Shown: positions 7,505 to 64,000 of the stretch, in pieces
How the letters are laid out: each line of letters starts with the position of its first letter
Position numbering within the stretch: the first letter of the stretch is position 1
NCBI RefSeq assembly: GCF_000473045.1
Contig: NZ_AXAY01000039.1
Coordinates: 1 to 64,000 of the forward strand
Direction: 5' to 3'
DNA from: Bradyrhizobium sp. WSM3983
GTDB taxonomy: Bacteria; Pseudomonadota; Alphaproteobacteria; Rhizobiales; Xanthobacteraceae
DNA: 64,000 nucleotides
Notes under the pieces: generated by a model
What the model was told of the DNA's origin: nothing
Database searches by the model: none
Seen by the model: only the letters and a program-made list of their open reading frames with translations
Translations under genes and position numbers: made by a program

Positions 7505-8455
7505 TCAGAGGTCCAACACCAGTTTGGGCCCGGCGCAATCGCCTACGCAGACGATGAGCTCGCTTTGCCGCTCGGCTGGCGAAAGGACACGATCCCTGTG
7601 GATAGGAGGCCCTTCAATCCACCGCGTCCGGCAGGCTCCGCAGATGCCACCCCCGCACGAGACCGCCACATCGATGCCCAACGCCTCGAGCGTTCCGAGC
7701 AAGCCGACCTCGGGCACAACCGTTGCCACTTTCTTGCTCTCTCGCAGAACGAGTTCATAGGGTGGCACGTCACTCTGGGCGACCCGTTTCGGCGGGGTGA
7801 ACATCTCGATGTGCTTGCGCTCGTCCGGCCAGCCTTCCACGGCGCCTTCGAAATCCCTGAGCATAGGCTCCGGCCCGCAGCAGGCCGCAAAGCCGCTGCC
7901 GGCGAACTCCTGAACTAGCTCGGCAATCGCGGGCTTCGGCTGCATGGCCGTGTCGTACAGCCGAACGCGACCGGCCTCGATTGCGGGCGAGATCATGTCG
8001 GAGAGGACCGGCCACCCGCGACTTGTCCAATGCAGTCTATAGTTCGTGCGTCTGCGTCGCTCGAGGTGCCGGATCGCAGAGATGAATGGCGTCACGCCGA
8101 TGCCACCCGCCACGAACACGTTCATTTCGTCCGGATTCAGTGCGATGCCGCCCCGCGGCAGGGAGACGCCGAAAGAGTCGCCGACACGTACCCGATCATG
8201 CAGGAAATTTGAGCCGCCGCGGCCGTCGCGCTCCCGCTTAACTGCTATGACATAGCGTGTGTTGTCTTCGGGCTCGTTGCAAAGCGAATAGGTACGGACC
8301 AGGCCAGGTTGCAGGTGCACATCAAGATGCGCGCCGGGCTTGAAAGGAGGCAGCTCCCAACCGTCCTGATCCGTCAGCGTGAAGCGCTTGGTCTCATTGC
8401 CGAGATCCTCGACCCGCGAAACGACGGTCGAGACAGTTTTGATCGGCTTAGCCAT
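7505..8455 (-). CDS. Ferredoxin-NAD(P)H reductase with C-terminal 2Fe-2S domain (PDR/VanB type)
   Basis: 316 residues in the phthalate-dioxygenase-reductase/VanB arrangement. A flavin-binding barrel (RTYSLCNEP) comes first, then a nucleotide-binding domain (VFVAGGIGVTPFISAI and CCGPEPML). A plant-type ferredoxin domain comes last, with cysteines in CGGGICGAC and a fourth in LIVCVGDC. Such proteins carry electrons from NAD(P)H to an oxygenase or other redox partner. No Rieske oxygenase lies beside it. Its start overlaps the stop of the MOSC gene (TAATG at 8453-8457), so the MOSC protein is the likely partner. Confidence 0.9.
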   Translation of the reverse strand: MAKPIKTVSTVVSRVEDLGNETKRFTLTDQDGWELPPFKPGAHLDVHLQPGLVRTYSLCNEPEDNTRYVIAVKRERDGRGGSNFLHDRVRVGDSFGVSLPRGGIALNPDEMNVFVAGGIGVTPFISAIRHLERRRRTNYRLHWTSRGWPVLSDMISPAIEAGRVRLYDTAMQPKPAIAELVQEFAGSGFAACCGPEPMLRDFEGAVEGWPDERKHIEMFTPPKRVAQSDVPPYELVLRESKKVATVVPEVGLLGTLEALGIDVAVSCGGGICGACRTRWIEGPPIHRDRVLSPAERQSELIVCVGDCAGPKLVLDL

Positions 8456-8964
8456 TACAAAGGCCTTACGGCGTCACCCACGCGCAAGGTACCGCCTGCG
8501 ATGATCTTGCAGTTTAATCCTGAGCGGTTGATCAGCGGATCGAACACGGCCTTACCGAGAATCTCCTCGATATGACGGCAGGGCGTGGACAGACGCGTGG
8601 CTTCGACAATCGCCTCGCCGAGCCTGAAGCGCCGGCCGACGAGGTGGTTCAGCGGCACACCCTCGACCGTCACGTTTCGTCGATGCTCTTCCGGCAGCAG
8701 TTCGATGCCGTGATCGCGGCGCAGGGCCTCGAGGGTCTCCATCTCGAACAGGGTGATCTGCCGACCCTCCTCCGGCTTGTGCGAGTAGAAGCCGGTCTCG
8801 TGCCCGATGAGGTAACGGTCGCCTTCGATGCCGCGGCCGGCAATCAGTTGGAGTACGGGGAATTCGCGCATGGGAAGAAACGCACGTGGCGTCTTGTGAA
8901 GAAAGCGCACGACACCCCGCCATGAGGCCGCGATCTGCGTTTTCTCGGATACGATGCCGTCCAT
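8455..8964 (-). CDS. MOSC-domain protein (molybdenum cofactor/sulfur-carrier type)
   Basis: About 169 residues with a MOSC domain: RGIEGDRYLIGHETGFYSH, the RNVTVEGVPLNHLVG segment, and the conserved cysteine in STPCRHIEEIL, which binds the molybdenum cofactor in relatives. MOSC proteins such as YiiM and YcbX help reduce N-hydroxylated compounds. The ATG at 8964 follows AAGGTAG and is my chosen start. An ATG at 8985 and a GTG at 9003 are also in frame. The stop overlaps the start of a flavin/2Fe-2S reductase gene, giving separate versions of the parts that are fused in YcbX. It lies immediately downstream of the TPP-enzyme gene. Confidence 0.85.
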   Translation of the reverse strand: MDGIVSEKTQIAASWRGVVRFLHKTPRAFLPMREFPVLQLIAGRGIEGDRYLIGHETGFYSHKPEEGRQITLFEMETLEALRRDHGIELLPEEHRRNVTVEGVPLNHLVGRRFRLGEAIVEATRLSTPCRHIEEILGKAVFDPLINRSGLNCKIIAGGTLRVGDAVRPL

Positions 8965-9010
8965 TTGACTACCTTCGATATTCATGCGGCAGAGCTGTCC
9001 CACCTCTCGA

Positions 9011-10657
9011 TCAGCGCGAGGCTGCTGCGATCGACTTGTCGGGAGATTGGTGCACGTCGGACCGCACTTCGATTACGACCGGCCCCTTTGTCGACATTGC
9101 CTCGGCCACGATTGCCGGAGCGCCTCTTGCGTCGCAAATGCAGTATCCAGCGGCGCCGTACGCGCGGGCCAAGGCGGCAAAATCAGGATTTGACAAATCG
9201 GTGCCGTACGGCCGGTTCGGAAACGTTCTCTCCTGATGGGAGCGAATGGTGCCATACGAGTTGTTGTTGGAAATCACGATCTTCAGATCGGCTCCTCTCG
9301 CAACCGCAGTGGCCAGTTCGTTCCCAGTCATCAGGAAGCCACCGTCTCCGCAAAACGCGATCACCTGTCGATCGGGATACCGCAGGCTTGCCGCGAGCCC
9401 GGACGGAACTCCGCTTCCCATCGCACCGCATGCCGAACCGAGCAATCGCGCAGTTGGCTGGAAGCTAAAAGTCCGGTGGACCCATCCGGCGAAGTTGCCG
9501 GAGTCCGTCGTGACCACCCCATCCGGCCGAAAGTGCGAGGCAATGGCCGCAACGGCATGGCCAAAAACGTCATTCGGGGGCACGCCCGACCGAGGCCAGC
9601 CGTGCGTCGCTGTCCGTGCAGCGACAATCTTCTGGCGCCAGGCGGTCCGCTCCTGTGGCGAAGCACATAAGGCAAGCATTCCGCGGACGAAGGCGTGCGC
9701 CCCAGACACGATCGCAAGGTCGGTTTGAAAGCGAGTCCCGATCGAAACGGGGTCCGGATAGACCTGCACAAGCGGCTGACGCGGCGCAGATTGTCGGGGA
9801 AACGAGAATCCGAGAGAGGAAAGATCGCCGAGGCGACTTCCGATCGCGACGATGAGATCGGCGCGCTCGAAGAGCTTCATGTGCGCGGGAGCGGTGAAGA
9901 ACCCGAGCTGGCCGGCCCAGAGGGAATGATCGTTGGGAAACTGGTCCTGCATCTTGGCGGCGACAACGACTGGCACATTCCACTTTTCGCTCAGGGCGAC
10001 CAGATCTTGCCGGAATGCTGTCGTCCGACACTCCCCGCCGACTAGCAGAATAGGCCGCTCTGAAGCGGCGAGCATGACGCCGGCCTTCTCGATTGCATCC
10101 GCGCCGGCCTCTGGCTGCACCGTTCCGTGGGTTCTAGCAACAAGTCCATCCGCCATATCGGCCAGAAGGTCCTCCGGCAGTTCGACAGCAACCGGACCGG
10201 GCGTGCCGGACTGCGCAATTGCAAATGCGCGGGCCATCATCTCCGGGACCAAAGCCGCGACGTCCAATCGAACCGCCCACTTCAGGACGCCATCGAAGGA
10301 GCGACTACAGTCGACCTCCTGCACCGCTTCGCGATCGAGGTTTGGACGGTCGACCTGTCCAACCAGCATCATGAGCGGAATCGCCTCCTGCGCCGCCACA
10401 TGCAGACCGAGCGCCGCGTTGAAGGCACCTGGTCCGCGACTGGCCATCACGACGCCGGCACGCCCAGTCAGCTTGGCATCAGCGACCGCCGCGAGGCTCG
10501 CGCTGCCCTCGTGGCGGCACGTCACCAGATCGATTTGGTCTCTGTCATGCAACGCGTCCAGCAGCGGCAGAAAACTTTCGCCGGGAACGCCGAAGGCACG
10601 ATCGACGCCGTGGGCAATGAGGCTGTCCGCGATCAACTCGGCAATACGATAGGTCAT
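9011..10657 (-). CDS. Thiamine-diphosphate-dependent enzyme, acetolactate synthase-like
   Basis: 548-residue enzyme of the acetolactate synthase/benzoylformate decarboxylase/oxalyl-CoA decarboxylase superfamily. The N-terminal PYR domain has the catalytic glutamate (HEGSA, Glu50). The C-terminal domain has the TPP/Mg motif beginning GDGGF and ending VISNN. The central domain is poor in FAD-type signatures. These enzymes decarboxylate 2-oxo acids or condense two of them; the sequence does not settle which. Its ATG overlaps the CoA-transferase B stop by 4 bases, so it is translated as part of a CoA-transferase and acyl-CoA dehydrogenase operon. That fits degradation of an organic acid rather than branched-chain amino acid synthesis. 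Confidence 0.87.
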   Translation of the reverse strand: MTYRIAELIADSLIAHGVDRAFGVPGESFLPLLDALHDRDQIDLVTCRHEGSASLAAVADAKLTGRAGVVMASRGPGAFNAALGLHVAAQEAIPLMMLVGQVDRPNLDREAVQEVDCSRSFDGVLKWAVRLDVAALVPEMMARAFAIAQSGTPGPVAVELPEDLLADMADGLVARTHGTVQPEAGADAIEKAGVMLAASERPILLVGGECRTTAFRQDLVALSEKWNVPVVVAAKMQDQFPNDHSLWAGQLGFFTAPAHMKLFERADLIVAIGSRLGDLSSLGFSFPRQSAPRQPLVQVYPDPVSIGTRFQTDLAIVSGAHAFVRGMLALCASPQERTAWRQKIVAARTATHGWPRSGVPPNDVFGHAVAAIASHFRPDGVVTTDSGNFAGWVHRTFSFQPTARLLGSACGAMGSGVPSGLAASLRYPDRQVIAFCGDGGFLMTGNELATAVARGADLKIVISNNNSYGTIRSHQERTFPNRPYGTDLSNPDFAALARAYGAAGYCICDARGAPAIVAEAMSTKGPVVIEVRSDVHQSPDKSIAAASR

Positions 10658-54951: not shown

Positions 54952-55332
54952 ATGAAATGGCTCCGATCGAGACTTCGATCTTGCACGCAGTTGGCGCTGT
55001 TTGCGCTGGCGGTGCAGATGGTTCTTTCGTTTGGCCATATCCATCGACACGATCTCGGACTGCCACCACCTGTATCCGATGCGACGCAACTCATATCGGA
55101 TACGGAGCACGTGCCGGCGGGTCCGGCCGATCAGGACCATCATCCAGCCACGAACGATAGTTGTCCGATCTGCGCCAGCGTGGCGCTCGTCGCGACAGCG
55201 CTACCGTCCCTCCCCCCGGTGCTTGTCGAGCCGATACCGATCCGCCGTGCTCGCCTGCTGGAAACACCGGTCCAGCCGCCATCGACACAAGTCTGGCGTT
55301 CATTTCAAGCCCGCGCTCCACCTATCGCTTAG
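54952..55332 (+). CDS. Small exported protein, DUF2946-like
   Basis: 126 residues. A basic start and hydrophobic stretch (CTQLALFALAVQMVLSFGHI) form a signal peptide or anchor. A His/Asp-rich segment (ADQDHHPATNDSCPICASVA) follows with a CPIC pair, then a Pro-rich tail. This layout, signal then His-rich then CxxC, is that of DUF2946 proteins often found beside copper or other metal-handling genes; their function is unknown. It precedes the SPFH/P1B-ATPase operon in the same direction by about 190 bases. Confidence 0.6.
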   Translation: MKWLRSRLRSCTQLALFALAVQMVLSFGHIHRHDLGLPPPVSDATQLISDTEHVPAGPADQDHHPATNDSCPICASVALVATALPSLPPVLVEPIPIRRARLLETPVQPPSTQVWRSFQARAPPIA

Positions 55333-55518: not shown

Positions 55519-57678
55519 ATGAAATCTCCTGCCAAGGCGAACCGCATGCAACGATCGGCGGGCGAACTCGGAAAGGCGCCCGGGATGCTGGCCGAGCTGC
55601 CGCATTTCAACAATGCCAAGCGGTATGTTGGCGCGCTGCTGATCATCGGTGCGATCTTTGCATCAATCGGGTTGGGCTTGATTGGGATGGTCTACGCGCC
55701 GCCGGTCTACGCGCCTCCACATCTCTATCGATCTTTCTATCTCGTCATTCCGTCGGCATTCGCCTATGTGGGAGCGGCGCTTCTGGTCGCAGCTGCGGGA
55801 TCTCTCTCGGCCGGTATTGTCGCCTCCATCCGTGCCCACTTGCTGGAGTCCGACCGCCAAGGGGTCGCGCAAGCGGAAAACTCCGTTTCGGCCGTACCGC
55901 ACTGGGCCAGAAGCGAGCGATTGAGGCGTCGTCTTGGCGTTGTGCGCGCATTATTGATGCCAAGCGCAGCCTCTCTGGCGAACTGGCCGGCGACGCTTGT
56001 CGTCCTGCTGTTCGGCGGCCTGGCGGCTGGCGGTGTCATCGTTGGCTGGCTTGCGCCGCCAATGCGCATTGCCGACCCGCTGCCTCGACAAGTGCTGAGT
56101 GGCGTGCTGCTCGTCGCGGCATTCCCGCTCCTGGTGCTGGAGCGCTCCTACGCGGCGATCCCGGCCGAGATGCTGCCGGAGGCGCCGCAGCTCAATCGGT
56201 TGCTAAGGGTCCCGCTCACCACATGCCTTGGTCTTGGCATATCGATGGTCCTGCTCTCGCTCGGATTCCCATGGGCGATCTGGATCTATGTTGCCTTGGG
56301 CCTGTTGATTGTTGTCATCGCGCTCGAATTGATGCTGCGCAGCATGGCGATGTTTTTCATCCCGTTCGCGCCCATCGAACGATTGCGATCGGTTGCAGAC
56401 AGCAGTGTGGCCGGACTGCTCCGCTTCTCCGTACCCAACTTCCACGCCTTTAACATTGCCGTGCGTCAGCAGTTCGGCATTGATCTGTCGCGCAGCTGGG
56501 CGCTTGCCTTCATCCAAAGGGCAATGCTGCCAGTGGCGGCCGGGATGGCCCTTATGGCCTGGGGGCTAACCGGAGTTACAGCGCTCAGCCTCACTCAGCG
56601 CGCGGTTTACGAACGGTTGGGTGTACCCGTCGCCGTGTTTGGGCCCGGACTGCATTTTCATCTTCCATGGCCGATGGGCGTGATGCGTGGGGTTGAGCTT
56701 GGCATCATCCACGACATTCCGATCGCGATATCGCCTGGCGACGCTTCGATCGATTTCCAGCAGCCCAGCGCCGGCGTCGGTCAGCAGCAGAATTCGGTGG
56801 GCGACGAGGCCCCGGCGCCGCCCAGCGCAGATCGTCTGTGGAATGCATCGCATCCGTCCGAGCAGAGCTACCTGATCGCGAGCGAAGCGAGCGGCCGGCA
56901 GAGCTTCCAAATCGCCGATGCGGACTTGCGCATAGTCTACCGGATCGGGCCGTCAGACGCCGCTGCGATCGACTCCGTCTATCGAGTCGCTGAGCCGACG
57001 ACTTTCATCCGCGCCGTAGCCGGCCGGCTCCTGGTGCAATATTTCGCGCGGTACACATTGCTCGACGTGCTCGGTCAAAACCGCGAAGCTTTTGCCAATG
57101 AATTTCGCACCGCGTTGCAGGAACAATTGGATCAGATGTCGAGCGGCATCGAGGCCATTGCGGTGGTGGTCGAGGCGATCCACCCGCCTCCGGGGGCCGC
57201 CAACGCATACCACAACGTGCAGGCCGCCGAGATTCTCGCCACGTCGCAGGTTTCGAAAGAAAAGGCAAAAGCGATCCAAACCCTCAAGTCGGCCGAGACG
57301 AACGCAACGGCAGTTCACAACGGTGCGGTCGCGGCGGCCGCTCAGCTTGTTGGCGGGGCCAATAGCGAGAGCGTGCTGTTCGATGCCGATCGCGAGGCAG
57401 CGCAGCGCAACAGCGCGGCATTCCTTCTCGAGCGGTGGCTCGAACGCTTGGTCGTTGCCCTTACCGGCTCCGACATCATCGTCGTCGATCACCGCCTCAA
57501 CGGCCAGAACGCGCCAACTGTCGATCTGCGTAGCCTTGATGCCGCAACCCGCGACGTCCTCCCGCCCTCGGGGAAAAATGACGTCGCGCCGCCCTCCGAC
57601 AGAAATAACGATCCGGAAGACGAGGACAACGAATTCACGACACCAAAGTCCACACCGATACCAGGATCAAAGCCATGA
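55519..57678 (+). CDS. Polytopic membrane protein fused to an SPFH/HflK-like domain
   Basis: 719 residues from the ATG at 55519 (frame open to a GTG at 55426). The first half is a membrane module of about seven helices (YVGALLIIGAIFASIGLGLI, PATLVVLLFGGLAAGGVIVG, LGLGISMVLLSLGFPWAIWI, PVAAGMALMAWGLTGVTAL and others). The second half is an SPFH domain of the HflK protease-modulator type: QRAVYERLGVPVAVFGPGLH, HLPWPMGVMRGVELGI, RIVYRIGPSDAAAID, YTLLDVLGQNREAFANEF, and a coiled coil with ATSQVSKEKAKAIQTLKSAE. Ordinary HflK has one helix and about 400 residues. The stop overlaps the next SPFH gene by 4 bases (ATGA). It presumably forms a membrane ring with the two following proteins. Confidence 0.82.
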   Translation: MKSPAKANRMQRSAGELGKAPGMLAELPHFNNAKRYVGALLIIGAIFASIGLGLIGMVYAPPVYAPPHLYRSFYLVIPSAFAYVGAALLVAAAGSLSAGIVASIRAHLLESDRQGVAQAENSVSAVPHWARSERLRRRLGVVRALLMPSAASLANWPATLVVLLFGGLAAGGVIVGWLAPPMRIADPLPRQVLSGVLLVAAFPLLVLERSYAAIPAEMLPEAPQLNRLLRVPLTTCLGLGISMVLLSLGFPWAIWIYVALGLLIVVIALELMLRSMAMFFIPFAPIERLRSVADSSVAGLLRFSVPNFHAFNIAVRQQFGIDLSRSWALAFIQRAMLPVAAGMALMAWGLTGVTALSLTQRAVYERLGVPVAVFGPGLHFHLPWPMGVMRGVELGIIHDIPIAISPGDASIDFQQPSAGVGQQQNSVGDEAPAPPSADRLWNASHPSEQSYLIASEASGRQSFQIADADLRIVYRIGPSDAAAIDSVYRVAEPTTFIRAVAGRLLVQYFARYTLLDVLGQNREAFANEFRTALQEQLDQMSSGIEAIAVVVEAIHPPPGAANAYHNVQAAEILATSQVSKEKAKAIQTLKSAETNATAVHNGAVAAAAQLVGGANSESVLFDADREAAQRNSAAFLLERWLERLVVALTGSDIIVVDHRLNGQNAPTVDLRSLDAATRDVLPPSGKNDVAPPSDRNNDPEDEDNEFTTPKSTPIPGSKP

Positions 57679-58736
57679 TATTCGGGCATCATCACCACGG
57701 TCATCACCATGGTCATGGTCATCACCATCATGATCACGACGACCATTCGGGGCATGGATCGGGACATGGGCAGGATCGTCGGCAGCAGGGACTGTTCGCG
57801 CGCTACGGACGATTCGCGGTCGCTTTCGTGATCGTCGCAGCTGCCGTCGCCAGCGCCTGCCTCGTTCTGGTCAGTCCAGGCGATGCGATCGTGGTGACCC
57901 GCTTCGGCGATCCGATCCACGTGCTCACCGCACCCGGAGTCGCATGGAAGATGCCTGCGCCGTTTGAAAGCACGATCGATGTCGATCTGCGGCTGCGGAC
58001 CACATCGAGCGGCCTGCAGGACGTCGGAACGCGCGACGGCCTGCGTATCCTGGTACAGGCCTATGTGGCGTGGCAAGTGCCGGCCGAGCCCGACCACATC
58101 CGGCAATTCCTGCGCGCCGTTCGCAACCAGCCCGATGTGGCCGCGCAGCAATTGCGAAGCTTCGTCGGCTCGTCGCTGGAAATCGCAGCCGCGAGCTTCG
58201 ATCTCGCCGATCTGATAAATACCAATCCCGCCAAGGTTCAACTGACCACATTGGAGAGCCGCCTGCGTGAGCGTCTCGATGAGCAGGCGCTGAAGGTCTA
58301 CGGCGTGACCGTTCGGCAAGTCGGCATCGAACGTCTGACCCTGCCGGCAGAAACCCTGAATGCCACCATCGCGCGCATGCGGGCCGAGCGCGAAACCGTC
58401 GCGGCCGAACGGCAGGCCGAGGGCCGGCGCGCGGCTGCCGAAATCGCATCGAACGCCGATCGCGATGCGCGCGTTCTGCGCGCCAGGGCCAAGCAGGATG
58501 CATCCGAAGTCGAAGCCAAATCACGTCTCGAAGCGGCCGACATCTATGGTCGGGCCTACAGCAGTGCACCGGAGCTCTACAATTTGCTTCGATCCCTCGA
58601 CACCCTGGACACGGTGGTGGGCGACAATACACGGCTGATTCTGCGCACCGATGCCGCGCCGTTCCGGGTTCTGGTCGACGGGCCACCGAGCGCGGCCGCG
58701 CCCGCGGCACAACCTACGCAAGGAAGCCGCCAATGA
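57675..58736 (+). CDS. HflC-like SPFH protein with His-rich N-terminal tail
   Basis: 353 residues. The first 32 residues contain 16 histidines (FGHHHHGHHHGHGHHHH then DHDDHSGHGSGHG), a likely metal-binding tail. One helix (FAVAFVIVAAAVASACLVLV) is followed by an HflC-type SPFH domain: AIVVTRFGDPIHVLTAPGVA, WKMPAPFEST, LDEQALKVYGVTVRQVGIER. The coiled coil ERETVAAERQAEGRRAAAEI ends in the HflC-typical AADIYGRAYSSAPELYNLLR. HflC and HflK normally regulate FtsH. Here the tail and the neighbouring metal ATPase suggest a metal-linked role. It starts and ends with ATGA overlaps to its neighbours. Confidence 0.88.
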   Translation: MIFGHHHHGHHHGHGHHHHDHDDHSGHGSGHGQDRRQQGLFARYGRFAVAFVIVAAAVASACLVLVSPGDAIVVTRFGDPIHVLTAPGVAWKMPAPFESTIDVDLRLRTTSSGLQDVGTRDGLRILVQAYVAWQVPAEPDHIRQFLRAVRNQPDVAAQQLRSFVGSSLEIAAASFDLADLINTNPAKVQLTTLESRLRERLDEQALKVYGVTVRQVGIERLTLPAETLNATIARMRAERETVAAERQAEGRRAAAEIASNADRDARVLRARAKQDASEVEAKSRLEAADIYGRAYSSAPELYNLLRSLDTLDTVVGDNTRLILRTDAAPFRVLVDGPPSAAAPAAQPTQGSRQ

Positions 58737-59776
58737 CGGTATCCGATATACGCGAAGGTGCCGAACCCGAAGGAGCATGGGCTCAATCCGCCAAGATCGC
58801 ATTCCGATTCCTGTTCCTCGCCGTCTGCTTCGCGGCAGTCGTTTGGTCATTGTCGGGCATTCGGCAGGTGCCGCCTGAAAGCCGGGCGATCGTCTACCAA
58901 TTCGGAAAGGTCGAGCGTCAACAACCGGCCGGACTATTGTTCGCATGGCCGCGGCCGATCGAGCAGGTTGTCATCCTGCCATCAGCCGACCGGCAAATCG
59001 AATTCCGGATCGACAGCTTCGAGCCGGGCTCAAATCCCAAACACGTCTTCTACTACAACGCCCGAATGAATGGCGCCTTCCTGTTGAGCGGTGATGCCAG
59101 TGTGGTGCATCTGGAAGCTACGCTGTTCTATCAGATCGTGGATCCGGCCGCCTATATTTTGACCGGCGAGCACCTTGGGCCTGCCCTGCAGCGTTTGTTC
59201 GTCGCCAGCGCTGTCTCCGTCAGCGCAGCGCGCGATCTGGATACGATATTGGTCGCACGCCCCGAATTGGCTACCGGTTCGAATGCCGCCGCGCGCGCCG
59301 GCCGCGAGAGGCTACGCTCAGATCTGATGAACGCGATCAATCACCGGCTCGGAGATCTCAGCGGCGTGGGCGCCGGTCTCGGCATCACGGTGAGCCGGGT
59401 CGATCTCGCGGCATCGATTCCGGACGGCGCCAAGGATGCCTTCGACAGGGTGCTGGTCGCCTCGCAGGAAGCCGAGCGTGACATTGCCGAGGCTCGCACA
59501 GATGCGGCCGCCACGGCGCTCAGCGCCAATCAAGAGCATGATCGGATTCTCACGGATGCCGATGCTAAAGCGGCGGAGAAAACGACCCAAGCAAAGGTGC
59601 GCACGGCCGCCATTAACGCCCTTGCGCGGGGATCGCCTGGATTTTCCGGCATGACACTCGCCAGACGGATCTATATCGACCGCATCGGCGCCATATTGGC
59701 GAAGGCCGCTCGCGTCGATACGGTGGACCAGAGCGGCGGACTTCATCTGATACTGCCCGGGACGACGCCGCAATGA
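58733..59776 (+). CDS. Second HflK-like SPFH protein
   Basis: 347 residues. One N-terminal helix (KIAFRFLFLAVCFAAVVWSL) is followed by an SPFH domain: RQVPPESRAIVYQFGKVERQ, PAGLLFAWPRPIEQVVILPS, VVHLEATLFYQIVDPAAYIL, and a coiled coil (DRVLVASQEAERDIAEARTD). It ends in SGGLHLILPGTTPQ, the kind of terminal strand seen in HflK. It is shorter than the polytopic first gene and is the third SPFH protein of the operon. ATGA overlaps couple it to the His-rich HflC-like gene before and the P1B ATPase after. Confidence 0.85.
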   Translation: MTVSDIREGAEPEGAWAQSAKIAFRFLFLAVCFAAVVWSLSGIRQVPPESRAIVYQFGKVERQQPAGLLFAWPRPIEQVVILPSADRQIEFRIDSFEPGSNPKHVFYYNARMNGAFLLSGDASVVHLEATLFYQIVDPAAYILTGEHLGPALQRLFVASAVSVSAARDLDTILVARPELATGSNAAARAGRERLRSDLMNAINHRLGDLSGVGAGLGITVSRVDLAASIPDGAKDAFDRVLVASQEAERDIAEARTDAAATALSANQEHDRILTDADAKAAEKTTQAKVRTAAINALARGSPGFSGMTLARRIYIDRIGAILAKAARVDTVDQSGGLHLILPGTTPQ

Positions 59777-61686
59777 CCGCAGAAACCATGACCGCAAACG
59801 ACGCCGCCACGCCGAGCGAGGGCCTGCTCAGCCGATCTGAACAGATTTCCCTTGGCGTGCGGCTTGTTCTTTCGCTGATTGCCGGCGGATGTCTGATCCT
59901 TTCGGCCGGACTGCTGTTCCTGGCGCCGAGCCAGGCTGAAGTCGCCGAGCTGGTTGCCGGTGTTGCGGCATTGCTGGTCGCCATCCCCGCGCTCTCGGCA
60001 GCCTGGGAGAGCCTGCGCTATCCGGATCTGCACGGCATAACAGACCAGCTCATCGCCCTGGCGTTGGTCGCGGCCTGGGCGGCTGGAGATCTCATGACGG
60101 CGGCATTGCTGCCCCTGGTCATGACTCTCGGACACATCCTGGAGGAGCGATCACTGCTGGGTTCGCAAGAGGCGATCCGGGCGCTGAGCCGGTTGACGCA
60201 GGTCAAGACGCGCCGCGTGCTGCCGGGTGGGGAACTCGAAGAAGTGACCACGCAATCGTTGCAGGCCGGCGATCTGATCGATTTGCGCGCTGGCGATCTC
60301 GTCCCCGCCGACGGCGTAGTTCAAACCGGCAAGTCAAGCATGGATACGGCTTCAATCACGGGAGAATCCGTTCCCGTCGAAGTGCAGCCCGGCAGCGAGG
60401 TGTTCAGTGGCTCGATCAATGTCGACGGTCATCTGCTCGTGAAGCTCACGCGGGTTGGCCAGGATTCGACCCTCGGCCGTGTGATAACCCTGCTGCAGGA
60501 GGCCGAGAACGCCAAGCCTCCGATTACCCGGCTGCTCGAACGCTATGCCGGACGTTACATGGTGCTGGTGCTGCTGACAGCCGCCGGCACCTGGTTTCTG
60601 ACCAGCAGTACGGTGGCAATGCTGGCGGTGCTGGTCGCAGCCTGTCCGTGCGCCCTGGTGCTCGCCGCGCCGGCGACGTCAATCGCCGCGATCGCTGTTG
60701 CAAGCCGTCACGGAATCTTGGTCAAGGGCGCGGGATTCCTGGAGAACCTCGCGACCGTCGATGCGGTCGTGTTCGACAAGACCGGGACCGTCACGCTGGG
60801 ACAATTGCAGGTCGTCGATGCGAGACCGGAGTCCGGCGTCAGCCGGGACGAACTCGCTACATTGGCCGGCAGTCTGGCGGGCGCCAGCAATCACCCGGTC
60901 AGTCGGGCGCTCGTTCGGTTTGCAACGAACGCAAAGCTCGAACTCGATGACGTCAAAGAAACGCATGGTCTCGGCGTGGTCGGACGGCTGGGCGGGGACA
61001 CGGTCGCACTTGGTCGCGCCGAGTTGTTCGATGAACTCGGCATCGCCGTTTCGTCTGAGCCGAACCACGACGGTCCGATCGCCGGTATCGCTCGCGGCAA
61101 CAAATTCCTCGGTTGGATGCTGATGGCGGATGAGCCTCGCCCGGAGGCGCCAGAGGCCATCGCAGACCTCCGCGAGCTCGGTCTTCGGCGGCAGGTGCTG
61201 CTGACGGGAGATCGCATGTCGGTCGCCCGCCGCATTGCCGATGTTCTGGGCCTGTCAAACGTCCGCGCCGAGGCCCTTCCGGCCGAGAAGATGGCTTGCG
61301 TGCTCGACGAGATTGGCGCCGGCTATCGTCCAATGGTGGTTGGCGATGGCATCAATGATTCGCTCGCGCTCAAGGTCGGCGCGGTCGGCGTTGCCATGGG
61401 CGCGCGTGGCAGCGACGTTGCGTTGGCCTCCGCCGATCTGGTGCTGATGACCAATGATCTGCGCCGGCTCGGGACCTGCATCCGTCTGAGCCGACGCTGT
61501 CGCCGTACCATCTATGTCAATGTCGCCGTCGGGCTTGGCTGGACGGTCGTGATCGTGGCCGCGGCGGCGACCGGCGTCATGGGCGCCAGCGGTGCGATCA
61601 TTGCGGCGCTGCTTCACAATTTCAGCACTTTGTTGGTGATGGCCAATGCTGGCCGGCTGTTGAAGTTTCAAGAGCCGGTGGCGTAG
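59773..61686 (+). CDS. P1B-type heavy-metal-translocating ATPase without N-terminal metal domain
   Basis: 637 residues. It has no N-terminal GMTCxxC domain; the protein begins almost directly with helices. Motifs in order are TGE in the actuator domain (SITGESVPVE), the metal-site CPC in VAACPCALVLAAPATSI, phosphorylation DKTGTVT, the SNHPVSRAL His-Pro motif, and GDGINDSLALK. The last helix has LLHNFSTLLVMANAGRLL, closer to Zn/Cd-type (HExST) than to Cu-type (MxxSS) signatures, but not identical. It exports a transition metal using ATP. Its ATG overlaps the third SPFH gene, so the four proteins are probably made in a fixed ratio. Confidence 0.92.
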   Translation: MTAETMTANDAATPSEGLLSRSEQISLGVRLVLSLIAGGCLILSAGLLFLAPSQAEVAELVAGVAALLVAIPALSAAWESLRYPDLHGITDQLIALALVAAWAAGDLMTAALLPLVMTLGHILEERSLLGSQEAIRALSRLTQVKTRRVLPGGELEEVTTQSLQAGDLIDLRAGDLVPADGVVQTGKSSMDTASITGESVPVEVQPGSEVFSGSINVDGHLLVKLTRVGQDSTLGRVITLLQEAENAKPPITRLLERYAGRYMVLVLLTAAGTWFLTSSTVAMLAVLVAACPCALVLAAPATSIAAIAVASRHGILVKGAGFLENLATVDAVVFDKTGTVTLGQLQVVDARPESGVSRDELATLAGSLAGASNHPVSRALVRFATNAKLELDDVKETHGLGVVGRLGGDTVALGRAELFDELGIAVSSEPNHDGPIAGIARGNKFLGWMLMADEPRPEAPEAIADLRELGLRRQVLLTGDRMSVARRIADVLGLSNVRAEALPAEKMACVLDEIGAGYRPMVVGDGINDSLALKVGAVGVAMGARGSDVALASADLVLMTNDLRRLGTCIRLSRRCRRTIYVNVAVGLGWTVVIVAAAATGVMGASGAIIAALLHNFSTLLVMANAGRLLKFQEPVA

Positions 61687-61708: not shown

Positions 61709-62650
61709 CTACTCCAGCTTGGAGAGGAGCTGGTCAAGACTATTGGCGAAGCTGTTGATGTCGAAGTTCAAGGGATCATCGTGGCCGTTAGGAATGTCGG
61801 CGTCGATGGCGGCGTGAAACGCAGGCACGAGCCAGTCCCCTCGGCGGACGCTGGCGATGGTGTAGAGCAAAGCCAGTCGGTCGTATTGTGCTGTGGTGAA
61901 AGCCGGATCGGGAGTACGCGCATCATTGCGCACGCCATGTCCCGGGGAAGTACCTCGCGGCTGCACCATCTCGGTATGCAGGAACAGCCCCTGCAGGGCC
62001 CCGCCAAACTCGGCCGCTTGCTCGAATTTGGTCTCCCGCCAGGGAATCGAATAATCGTGCGCCAGCAGCATTTCGCCGGTGCGATTAATGAAGACATGGG
62101 CGCGTCCCCAGCCATCCGAACAAGCATAATAAGCGAGATTTTCGTATAGTCGCCCGGTATCGATGTTGTCGGGAAATGCGCGGCGGCCGTAATTCGGCCC
62201 GCTGGTATCGTGGATCACGAAGTACCGTGCCATGGGCGCATCGGGATCGTTGTTGCGGGCCCGCGATAACGACTCCCACAGATGGGCGCCAAACTCAACC
62301 TCCAGGTCCTGCCTTGAGAGATAAGCGGTCAGCGCTTCGCGCGAGGGCAAGTCCGTGATTTTGCCGATCCGTCGTGCGAGTCCGGACGGCAGACTTTCGA
62401 CGGGCGGGCCGAGATTCCTGCTCGCATCCATGCCGCGCATGAGACATTTGGCTTGCTGCATGGGCGTGCCGGCAAAGCTCAAAGTCTCCAGGTCGAAATC
62501 GCAGACGCCCATACTCTTGACAAAATAAGGCGCGCGAAAGTGGCGCGGCTTGCATTCCGTGGCAAACACCGCCTTCGCAAAACTGAGCGACAGTGCGGCG
62601 CAAACTCCCGCCACGAGCAGGTTGCAATTTGGTTTGACGCGGTCGCGCAA
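61709..62650 (-). CDS. Exported protein, amidase_2/PGRP-like
   Basis: 313 residues. A signal peptide (NLLVAGVCAALSLSFAKAVF, cleavage near VFATEC) is followed by a cysteine-containing mature protein. The middle resembles the N-acetylmuramoyl-L-alanine amidase/PGRP fold: ARYFVIHDTSGPNYG, GRAHVFINRTGEMLLAHDYS and GLFLHTEMVQPRG supply candidate zinc histidines. A peptidoglycan role in the periplasm is inferred. It converges on the P1B-ATPase gene with only 22 bases between and is codirectional with the polysaccharide deacetylase upstream. Confidence 0.55.
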   Translation of the reverse strand: MRDRVKPNCNLLVAGVCAALSLSFAKAVFATECKPRHFRAPYFVKSMGVCDFDLETLSFAGTPMQQAKCLMRGMDASRNLGPPVESLPSGLARRIGKITDLPSREALTAYLSRQDLEVEFGAHLWESLSRARNNDPDAPMARYFVIHDTSGPNYGRRAFPDNIDTGRLYENLAYYACSDGWGRAHVFINRTGEMLLAHDYSIPWRETKFEQAAEFGGALQGLFLHTEMVQPRGTSPGHGVRNDARTPDPAFTTAQYDRLALLYTIASVRRGDWLVPAFHAAIDADIPNGHDDPLNFDINSFANSLDQLLSKLE

Positions 62651-62708: not shown

Positions 62709-63713
62709 TCAGAAGCCCTTCGCGCCTCCTAAGCAGCCTGAGCTTCCTTCGATCCGCCGTAACGCCGCGGCCTTTTTCACCGGTGCCGCAGCTGACAGCG
62801 GCGCCTCAGCGACCGGCACGTTCTCCTCTGCTCCAACAGCTCGAGCAGGAGGCAGCCGCCATTGTTCGGAAGTTGTTTCGGTTTTTGCGATCGTCGCATT
62901 GGCCGCGACGACCTGCACCACCTTGTATCCCCTCGTCTTCAACTCGCTCAAAAGGTCCGGAAGTGCCCCAACAGTGCGTTCATGAATATCGTGAAGAAGG
63001 AGAATGCCCCGGCTCTTCGCTTCCAATCTCGAAATCGCCCGTTTCACGACTTCGGCGCTGCTTATTCCCAACCAGTCGTCGGCCGGAACGTCCGCGCTCC
63101 ACGTCATGAGACCGCGGGAGGCGAGCGCGGCCTCAGTGCGCTCAGAGGTCAACAAGCCCGGCACCCGGAAAAAGGGAGCGATTTCCTCCGAACTTCCGAG
63201 CGCAGTCCCGACTGCGGCGATTCCTCCGTCGATTTCCCGGCCTGCCTGACTTTCCGTCATTCTTCCGAAAGTGAACGGGTGACTAAAGCTATGCGTCCCA
63301 ATGGTATGCCCCTCAGCCTCAACCTTTCTGGCTTCGTCCGGAAAGGTCGCCGCCATCCGGCCAACCATGAAAAACGTCGCTTTGACGCATTCCGAAGCGA
63401 GTATCTCAAGGACACGGTCCGTGTATCGCGGCGACGGCCCGTCATCAAAGGTGATGACGACCTCGTGGTCGGCGAGAGGCAGCGTTTCCGGATATTGCAT
63501 GGTGCCGATCCGCGGATGGTCCTTCGGGTCGACGGCGATGATGCGACTGGTGCCGAGCGCATCGGGCTTGCCATTGCACTCCGTCGCCGAACTAGATGTA
63601 CTTACGCCAAGGCTCGCGAGGACCAGACCGACAAGAAACCTGCGCCCAACAGGTTGAACGGGCTTCTGCTTCGCTGCACTTCGGAAGACGCGGATGGGAG
63701 AGACAATGCTCAT
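62709..63713 (-). CDS. Polysaccharide deacetylase (NodB/CE4 family)
   Basis: 334 residues from the ATG at 63713 behind GAGGGGAG; the frame is open to 63923, but that part overlaps the next gene. A signal or anchor segment (RRFLVGLVLASLGVSTSSSA) precedes the NodB homology domain: VVITFDDGPSPRYTDRVLEI (catalytic and metal Asp), HTIGTHSFSHPFTFGRM (metal His-x3-His), FFRVPGLLTSERTEAAL, WSADVPADDW and GILLLHDIHERTVGALP. It removes acetyl groups from a cell-surface polysaccharide, perhaps peptidoglycan or chitin-like. The C-terminal Ala/Glu-rich tail is not conserved. Confidence 0.9.
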   Translation of the reverse strand: MSIVSPIRVFRSAAKQKPVQPVGRRFLVGLVLASLGVSTSSSATECNGKPDALGTSRIIAVDPKDHPRIGTMQYPETLPLADHEVVITFDDGPSPRYTDRVLEILASECVKATFFMVGRMAATFPDEARKVEAEGHTIGTHSFSHPFTFGRMTESQAGREIDGGIAAVGTALGSSEEIAPFFRVPGLLTSERTEAALASRGLMTWSADVPADDWLGISSAEVVKRAISRLEAKSRGILLLHDIHERTVGALPDLLSELKTRGYKVVQVVAANATIAKTETTSEQWRLPPARAVGAEENVPVAEAPLSAAAPVKKAAALRRIEGSSGCLGGAKGF

Positions 63714-63727
63714 TGATCGCGCTCCCC

Positions 63728-64000
63728 TCATACCGGCTCTCTCGGAGCCTGGACCTGCGCATTGGGAGATCGGTAGGCCGCCCAGCCGCGGCTGACGAAA
63801 TAGGCTAGCGCGCTTAGCAATGCGATGCAGAAGCTGACGGGCCAATCGGTATAATAGGCGATGGCGATCCCGACCCAAGCCTCGGCCAAAGCAAGACCGA
63901 CCGAGAGCGCAATTCCGCTCCAAAGCCCGCCGACGAGCAGTTGCGCGGTTGCCGGCGGACCCACCATAAGACTGAATACGAGGAGAATGCCGACGATCTG
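63728..64000 (-). CDS. Metal ABC transporter permease (ZnuB/MntB type), 3' end only
   Basis: The frame enters at the right edge and gives the last 90 residues of an ABC-3 family permease: QIVGILLVFSLMVGPPATAQ, LLVGGLWSGIALSVGLALAE, AWVGIAIAYYTDWPVSFCIA, LLSALAYFVSRGW. The PPATAQLL segment and the GxxxSYY-like loop are typical of zinc/manganese uptake permeases (ZnuB). It lies 14 bases upstream of the deacetylase gene. Its ATP-binding and substrate-binding partners would be beyond the window. Confidence 0.8.
   Translation of the reverse strand, partial: QIVGILLVFSLMVGPPATAQLLVGGLWSGIALSVGLALAEAWVGIAIAYYTDWPVSFCIALLSALAYFVSRGWAAYRSPNAQVQAPREPV

Follow-up and report, generated by a model that had tools for sequence, protein, structure and literature searches.

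A conserved cassette of three HflK/HflC-related genes and a P-type metal ATPase in Bradyrhizobium: a probable HmtA-type metal acquisition system

Why should the gene of a heavy-metal P-type ATPase be joined to the genes of three SPFH proteins, and in which direction would such a pump move its metal? The question is raised by a four-gene operon at positions 55,519 to 61,686 of the 64,000-nucleotide stretch of Bradyrhizobium sp. WSM3983 DNA analysed here (contig NZ_AXAY01000039.1, positions 1 to 64,000; hereafter the window). Its genes are called, in operon order, A, B and C (the three SPFH genes) and D (the P1B ATPase gene). The answer proposed is that the four genes probably form an HmtA-type cassette for zinc (and/or copper) acquisition, lying inside a zinc-starvation island; the composition is already known from Pseudomonas aeruginosa, and the system is barely studied. 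The evidence comprises gene content and order, the co-occurrence of A and D, the zinc-related genes of the surroundings, Zur-like boxes in two bacterial families and the distribution of histidine-rich tails.

All four genes lie on the plus strand. A (55519-57678) encodes a polytopic HflK-like SPFH protein of 719 amino acids (aa), recognised by a Band_7 domain at residues 360-585, by hydropathy and by its place in the tree; B (57675-58736) encodes an HflC-like SPFH protein of 353 aa with a His-rich N-terminal tail and a single transmembrane (TM) segment (Band_7, tree, His count); C (58733-59776) encodes an HflK-like SPFH protein of 347 aa, again with a single TM (Band_7, HflK model, tree); and D (59773-61686) encodes a P1B metal ATPase of 637 aa (TIGR01525, motifs, nearest PDB chain 7qbz). 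This composition had been proposed in a preliminary description of the locus and is borne out by Pfam, and the ATGA overlaps that join the four open reading frames (ORFs) lie where it had placed them, at 57675 (A/B), 58733 (B/C) and 59773 (C/D). The overlaps are not a product of chance, because in-frame NTGA overlaps recur across 34 loci at the A/B (22), B/C (21) and C/D junctions (27, or 26 without locus L090, which has an extra ORF between C and D). The start of A at 55519 is backed by genome G320 (L071), where no other start precedes this ATG in the frame. The GC content of the cassette, 0.62-0.63 against 0.57-0.62 in the rest of the window, gives no clear sign of foreign origin.

Is this arrangement peculiar to one strain? 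The order A-B-C-D on one strand is present in all 40 loci that were opened out of 43 matches to A, all of them found through A. The conserved co-occurrence that the preliminary description had proposed to look for is hence found in many bacteria, and the gene order is not unique to this strain. Moreover, in the gammaproteobacterial family f44, which we take to be Pseudomonas-like, the D profile (E<=1e-150, up to 8 candidates scored per genome, weaker D-like genes being missed at this cut-off) and A (E<=1e-50) single out the same 18 of 148 genomes. The conserved order and this coincidence together rule out a chance co-location of A-D.

In the genus, full-length A occurs in 3 of 242 genomes, the own genome included, and one of the other two, B. 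diversitatis, holds a near-identical copy. Among 100 genomes of the family full-length A is found in the own genome only, 96 others matching partially, in the HflK-like part; the order sample has A in 2 of 249 genomes (own included), and of 398 genomes sampled from the phylum the A profile matches 12 at E<=1e-25, 11 at full length (own included) and the twelfth, G563, in the HflK-like part alone. All these samples and those of f44, f49 and g159 overlap, and their counts are not additive. In the genus g159 of f44, A is present in 13 of 25 genomes, and in the family f49, likewise gammaproteobacterial and presumably Enterobacteriaceae-like, in 5 of 119; E. coli genomes gave no match to the Klebsiella-type A-B-C stretch. 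Among 72,556 plasmid records 10 match A, none over more than 80% of its length; three (H2, H6, H7) were left out of the opened set, and all 7 that were opened carry A-B-C-D (Rhizobium, Burkholderia, Paraburkholderia, Klebsiella). On one of the host replicons, a Klebsiella aerogenes conjugative plasmid (L045), a Tn3-family transposase and an aminoglycoside phosphotransferase gene lie a few kb from the cassette.

The three SPFH proteins score above the Band_7 cut-off of Pfam (60.5 bits for A, 102.7 for B and 58.7 for C; cut-off 23.6), and are three of nine Band_7 matches in the 8.79-Mb genome, which carries a canonical hflK-hflC pair elsewhere. They are relatives of HflK and HflC and not these proteins themselves, because their scores lie below the NCBIfam HflK/HflC equivalog cut-offs (A 46.4 vs 159.4, B 97.8 vs 134.4, C 77.6 vs 159.4 bits); a plain HflKC identity is thereby ruled out. 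In an SPFH tree made by a quick method from 22 of the 40 loci (92 rows, with long-branch warnings), the A, B and C proteins fall into one clade each (SH-aLRT 100, 99 and 99, respectively), B beside HflC, A and C beside HflK. By hydropathy, A has about 5-6 N-terminal TM segments and a further TM preceding the SPFH domain, and its residues E270 and R274, within a predicted TM region, are invariant in 8 aligned sequences. A search of solved structures with A gave no match at E<=0.001, and a structure prediction (window protein and B. diversitatis copy) reached a pLDDT of 33.9, from which no conclusion was drawn. In one locus (L069 of G532, 8305-9288) an in-frame stop codon interrupts B.

The trees of all four proteins show the same small groups, which a cassette moving as a unit would be expected to give. 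The Rhizobium copies fall among the f44/f49 copies and not beside those of Bradyrhizobium in the trees of C and D (supports 82-97, not all high), are grouped with f44 copies in the A tree (94), and branch outside the f44/f49 copies in that of B. Tree placement and plasmid copies point to horizontal transfer of the cassette.

What kind of pump is D? The protein contains the Pfam domains E1-E2_ATPase and Hydrolase and no HMA domain, reaches 527.5 bits with TIGR01525 (cut-off 346.25), and has DKTGT and, in TM4, a CPC motif of the CPx type, features that place it among the P1B (heavy-metal P-type) ATPases; four others in the own genome stand above the TIGR01525 cut-off. The last TM of the window protein reads LHNxST, and LHNx[SG]T is found in 22 of 22 D proteins examined. 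These 22 form a single clade (support 100) apart from E. coli ZntA, CopA and six relatives from the own genome, in a tree whose outgroup branches are very long. A CopA-type copper exporter is ruled out by the TIGR01511 score (370.3 bits vs 397) and by the lack of HMA in Pfam. In ZntA an acidic residue of the last TM is important, and a ZntA-type zinc/cadmium exporter is ruled out by the LHNx[SG]T that all D proteins examined have instead. The P1B-4 or CoaT type has SPC in TM4 and HEG[GS]T in the last TM; D has CPC and HNx[SG]T, and this type is ruled out too. The nearest PDB chain, 7qbz, is what we take to be a CoaT-type pump, and the cadmium-family model TIGR01512 gives D 474 bits against a cut-off of 313.5. 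The preliminary description had called D metal-exporting; the direction of transport is not readable from sequence, and the label is probably wrong, the evidence pointing to uptake.

This evidence begins with a described counterpart. No system of this composition had been known to the preliminary description, and yet the same set is tabulated for P. aeruginosa PA2435-PA2439 (PMC4542158, PMC8531726, PMC11761036, PMC9431628). In particular, Table 2 of PMC4542158 gives PA2439 as HflK family, PA2438 as HflC, PA2437 as HflC family and PA2435 as HmtA, and lists PA2434; in a znuA mutant the induction of these five genes is 5.6-14.4-fold; PA2436 is absent from the list, and the Zur site is weak (E 0.11). 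In gel shifts the PA2439 promoter is bound by Zur in a zinc-dependent manner (PMC8531726), and under zinc depletion the protein levels are higher, only some significantly (PMC11761036). PA2437-2439 are also induced by N-acetylcysteine and are called FtsH modulators of the zur regulon (PMC9431628). HmtA itself is described in reviews as a zinc/copper importer whose overexpression raises cellular zinc and copper (PMC10393844), a function resting on one study (Lewinson et al. 2009), cited here via reviews. The passages of the hmtA literature covered here propose no role of the SPFH proteins for HmtA.

Are the relatives of the cassette equipped for control by metal starvation? A Zur-like box was defined as at least 10 of the 13 positions of TGTTATANNATAACA near the 5' end of A, the letters being those of the Zur consensus. 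Such a box precedes A in 27 of the 29 opened f44/f49 loci; of 619 control segments, each of 700 bp and taken from these loci, 14 contain one. All 27 boxes lie upstream of the onset of similarity to other A proteins, with an in-frame start codon of A after them, and some are individually unconvincing (L099). In a subset of 23 f44/f49 loci the box is present in 22, compared with 10 of 490 control segments and 182 of 3400 crude shuffles. Starvation control in f44 and f49 would appear well supported by these sites. A different palindrome, GATACGTAATAACGTATC, which three Rhizobium-type loci (L046, L047, L061) share close to where A starts, was rejected as a regulon sign: it gives no such evidence, because G442 holds one exact site and 7 further sites at 3 mismatches, against 5 for a control pattern.

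The histidine-rich tails follow a pattern of their own. Window B has 16 His within the 45 residues preceding its TM, a stretch that in such counts may take in residues upstream of the true start, and window D is without a His tail. In 39 of the 40 loci both proteins could be scored, and at least 5 His before the TM are found for B in 37 of 39 and for D in 20 of 39; where B has fewer than 5 His, in two loci, D has 6 and 4. C reaches 5-6 His in 2 of 40 loci, and A has at most 4. The N-terminus of B is predicted to be cytosolic from its charge pattern (3 vs 1 positive residues), so that the tails of B would face the cytosol, as those of D would by analogy with P1B pumps. The placement of the tail on either B or D suggests that both act at one place.

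The surroundings of the window copy are rich in zinc-related genes. Upstream, 186 bp from A, a gene at 54952-55332 (plus strand) encodes a 126-aa DUF2946 protein with His/Cys motifs (PF11162, 26.4 bits, cut-off 23.7); it precedes A in all 3 Bradyrhizobium loci (the window and two sisters) and is possibly co-transcribed with it. In B. diversitatis a second, divergent DUF2946-like ORF (L039, 7248-7631, minus strand), 33% identical to the first and without a Pfam hit, lies near the cassette. Downstream, on the minus strand, come a gene convergent with D for an Amidase_2-like protein (61709-62650; sub-threshold, 17.4 bits, cut-off 26), a polysaccharide deacetylase gene (62709-63923; PF01522, 84 bits), whose ORF overlaps znuB and has a start that is probably over-extended, and the 3' end of a ZnuB/AztB-like metal ABC permease gene (63728-64000; ABC-3; AztB 133.6 bits, below the cut-off of 280). 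Beyond the window end (L101, minus strand) the znuB operon continues with znuC, znuA, a small ORF and two COG0523 GTPase genes, recognised by ABC-3, ABC_tran, ZnuA and cobW/CobW_C, the second COG0523 gene having been scanned in the L102 copy. Four ZnuA-family matches occur in the genome, and the znuA of the island scores lowest among them. Both sister genomes have a PepSY protein and a TonB receptor after the COG0523 genes, and near-perfect Zur-type palindromes matching 18 of 20 positions of TGTAATGTTATAACATTACA precede a COG0523 gene (both sisters) and the TonB receptor (L103); the own contig ends short of these positions. The amidase-like and deacetylase genes, kept in 3 of 3 Bradyrhizobium loci, stand between the cassette and the znu operon, and cell-wall enzymes in zinc-starvation islands may merit attention; the P. 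aeruginosa zur regulon also includes an amidase (PMC9431628).

Elsewhere the neighbours vary. A Paraburkholderia locus (L044) has a pair of DUF2946 and PCu(A)C genes upstream of A; ZigA, a zinc ABC system and a regulator of the Fur family are encoded no more than about 10 kb away. In 5 of 18 f44 loci (L064, L065, L066, L096, L097) an MNIO/bufferin-type gene set lies directly after D; in L065, the one of the five on which the models were run, BufA2 and BufB exceed the NCBIfam cut-offs, and the third gene matches HvfC/DUF2063, with HvfC below its cut-off. This operon links the cassette to copper handling. In 9 of the 13 g159 loci a 150-175 aa ORF stands between C and D (L062, 11142-11594; same place in L089-L092, L110, L111, L113 and L114), the other 4 being without room for it; the L062 copy matches no Pfam or NCBIfam model, and its N-terminus is signal-like. 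Further neighbours are a cyclopropane synthase in 9 loci (Pfam was run on one) and, in 6 loci, what is presumably a cardiolipin synthase.

How would such a cassette work? We infer that D runs inwards here. A, B and C would form a heteromeric SPFH assembly of the HflK/C type in the inner membrane, dedicated to D, which it may organise or protect, and the cytosolic tails rich in His, carried by B (and by D in other species), may catch incoming metal for the COG0523 GTPases. A more tentative version, to which we give well under even odds, is that A-B-C-D would be an obligate machine, a periplasmic SPFH cage around an importing P-type ATPase with the cytosolic His tails as receiving buffer. KdpA supplies the entry path for KdpB; in the boldest form of this idea, the polytopic part of A would by analogy supply an entry path for D, and this would explain the inward running of a P1B pump.

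Several observations weigh against an acquisition cassette under zinc control. The orthology of D to HmtA (PA2435) is deduced from gene order in print; one review states that import by HmtA needs confirmation and names hmtA as an exception to Zur binding (PMC10393844), contrary to the gel shift of PMC8531726, and in the latter article hmtA mRNA is low and not repressed by added zinc. No Zur-like box of at least 10 of 13 positions precedes DUF2946 or A in the window or the two sisters, so that zinc control of the window copy is unproven; the 8 remaining loci that belong to neither f44 nor f49 (the plasmid copies, that of Klebsiella among them, and G442) also lack one, their best match being 9. 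As for the association of D with the SPFH genes, the 40 loci were seeded with A, the D cut-off would overlook weaker D-like genes, and an unannotated D-like stretch without SPFH neighbours, possibly a remnant, lies on a K. michiganensis plasmid (L100, 8001-9150). In addition, the PCu(A)C gene upstream of A in Paraburkholderia and the bufferin genes after D hint at copper. These last, with the DUF2946 gene next to the Paraburkholderia copy, favour the view that the system is mainly a copper one, D loading copper for cuproenzymes; HmtA is reported in a review to carry copper, and the unrepressed hmtA is taken by the authors as a hint of copper import (PMC8531726). The Zur-like boxes of the f44/f49 loci, which include those of the five bufferin loci, and the znu operon beside the window copy nevertheless make this view rather unlikely.

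The SPFH proteins could instead serve a partner other than D, the trio modulating the zinc-dependent protease FtsH during zinc starvation while D is merely co-regulated. Their relatives HflK and HflC are known FtsH partners, and PA2437-2439, members of the zur regulon, are listed as modulators of FtsH (PMC9431628), in favour of such a role. No ftsH, however, appears in the annotation around the cassette in four plasmid loci or among the neighbours that were checked with Pfam in the Bradyrhizobium loci, the canonical hflK-hflC pair is present elsewhere in the genome, and mere co-regulation explains less well why A and D share the same f44 genomes; we regard this explanation as possible, on the doubtful side. 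Much less credible is an efflux machine, in which D would export a toxic metal under regulation by an SPFH ring. Most P1B ATPases are efflux pumps according to reviews, and D passes the cadmium-family model; the Zur-like boxes in relatives, the znu/COG0523/TonB surroundings and the induction of PA2435-PA2439 upon zinc depletion all fit starvation. In other words, of the dedicated SPFH set with a metal ATPase that the preliminary description had envisaged, the association stands, by conserved order and shared genomes, and the efflux part is unlikely, zinc (and/or copper) acquisition being the more probable reading.

Metal import by a P1B ATPase has been an awkward question since HmtA, with confirmation still being asked for (PMC10393844). 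The literature passages covered do not discuss that the presumed relatives of HmtA come with a dedicated set of three SPFH proteins, including a polytopic one, and the question becomes testable: does the pump import metal only when its SPFH partners are present? The interesting part is the functional link between a putative P-type importer and the SPFH trio that accompanies it in all opened loci; if true, it would represent an SPFH assembly dedicated to a transporter.

Compared with known systems, the cassette resembles the hmtA locus of P. aeruginosa, where three HflK/HflC-family genes are followed by a P-type ATPase gene in the same order (PA2439, PA2438, PA2437, [PA2436], PA2435) and on the same strand, and where PA2436 occupies the position of the ORF between C and D of the g159 loci. 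The window copy differs in having neither a gene at the PA2436 position nor a visible Zur box, in the DUF2946 gene upstream and the znu operon downstream, and in a D without His tail. With canonical HflK-HflC the cassette shares the SPFH domain and the grouping of B with HflC and of A and C with HflK, whereas A, B and C form separate clades below the equivalog cut-offs, A has a large polytopic N-terminal part and B is His-tailed. Finally, D has the P1B core, DKTGT and a CPx or SPC motif in TM4 in common with the ZntA/CadA exporters and with 7qbz, which are found among its best matches in the PDB; it differs from 7qbz in having CPC instead of SPC, and in the last TM its LHNx[SG]T contrasts with ADTGAT of E. 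coli ZntA, AMALSS of CopA and HEGST of 7qbz.

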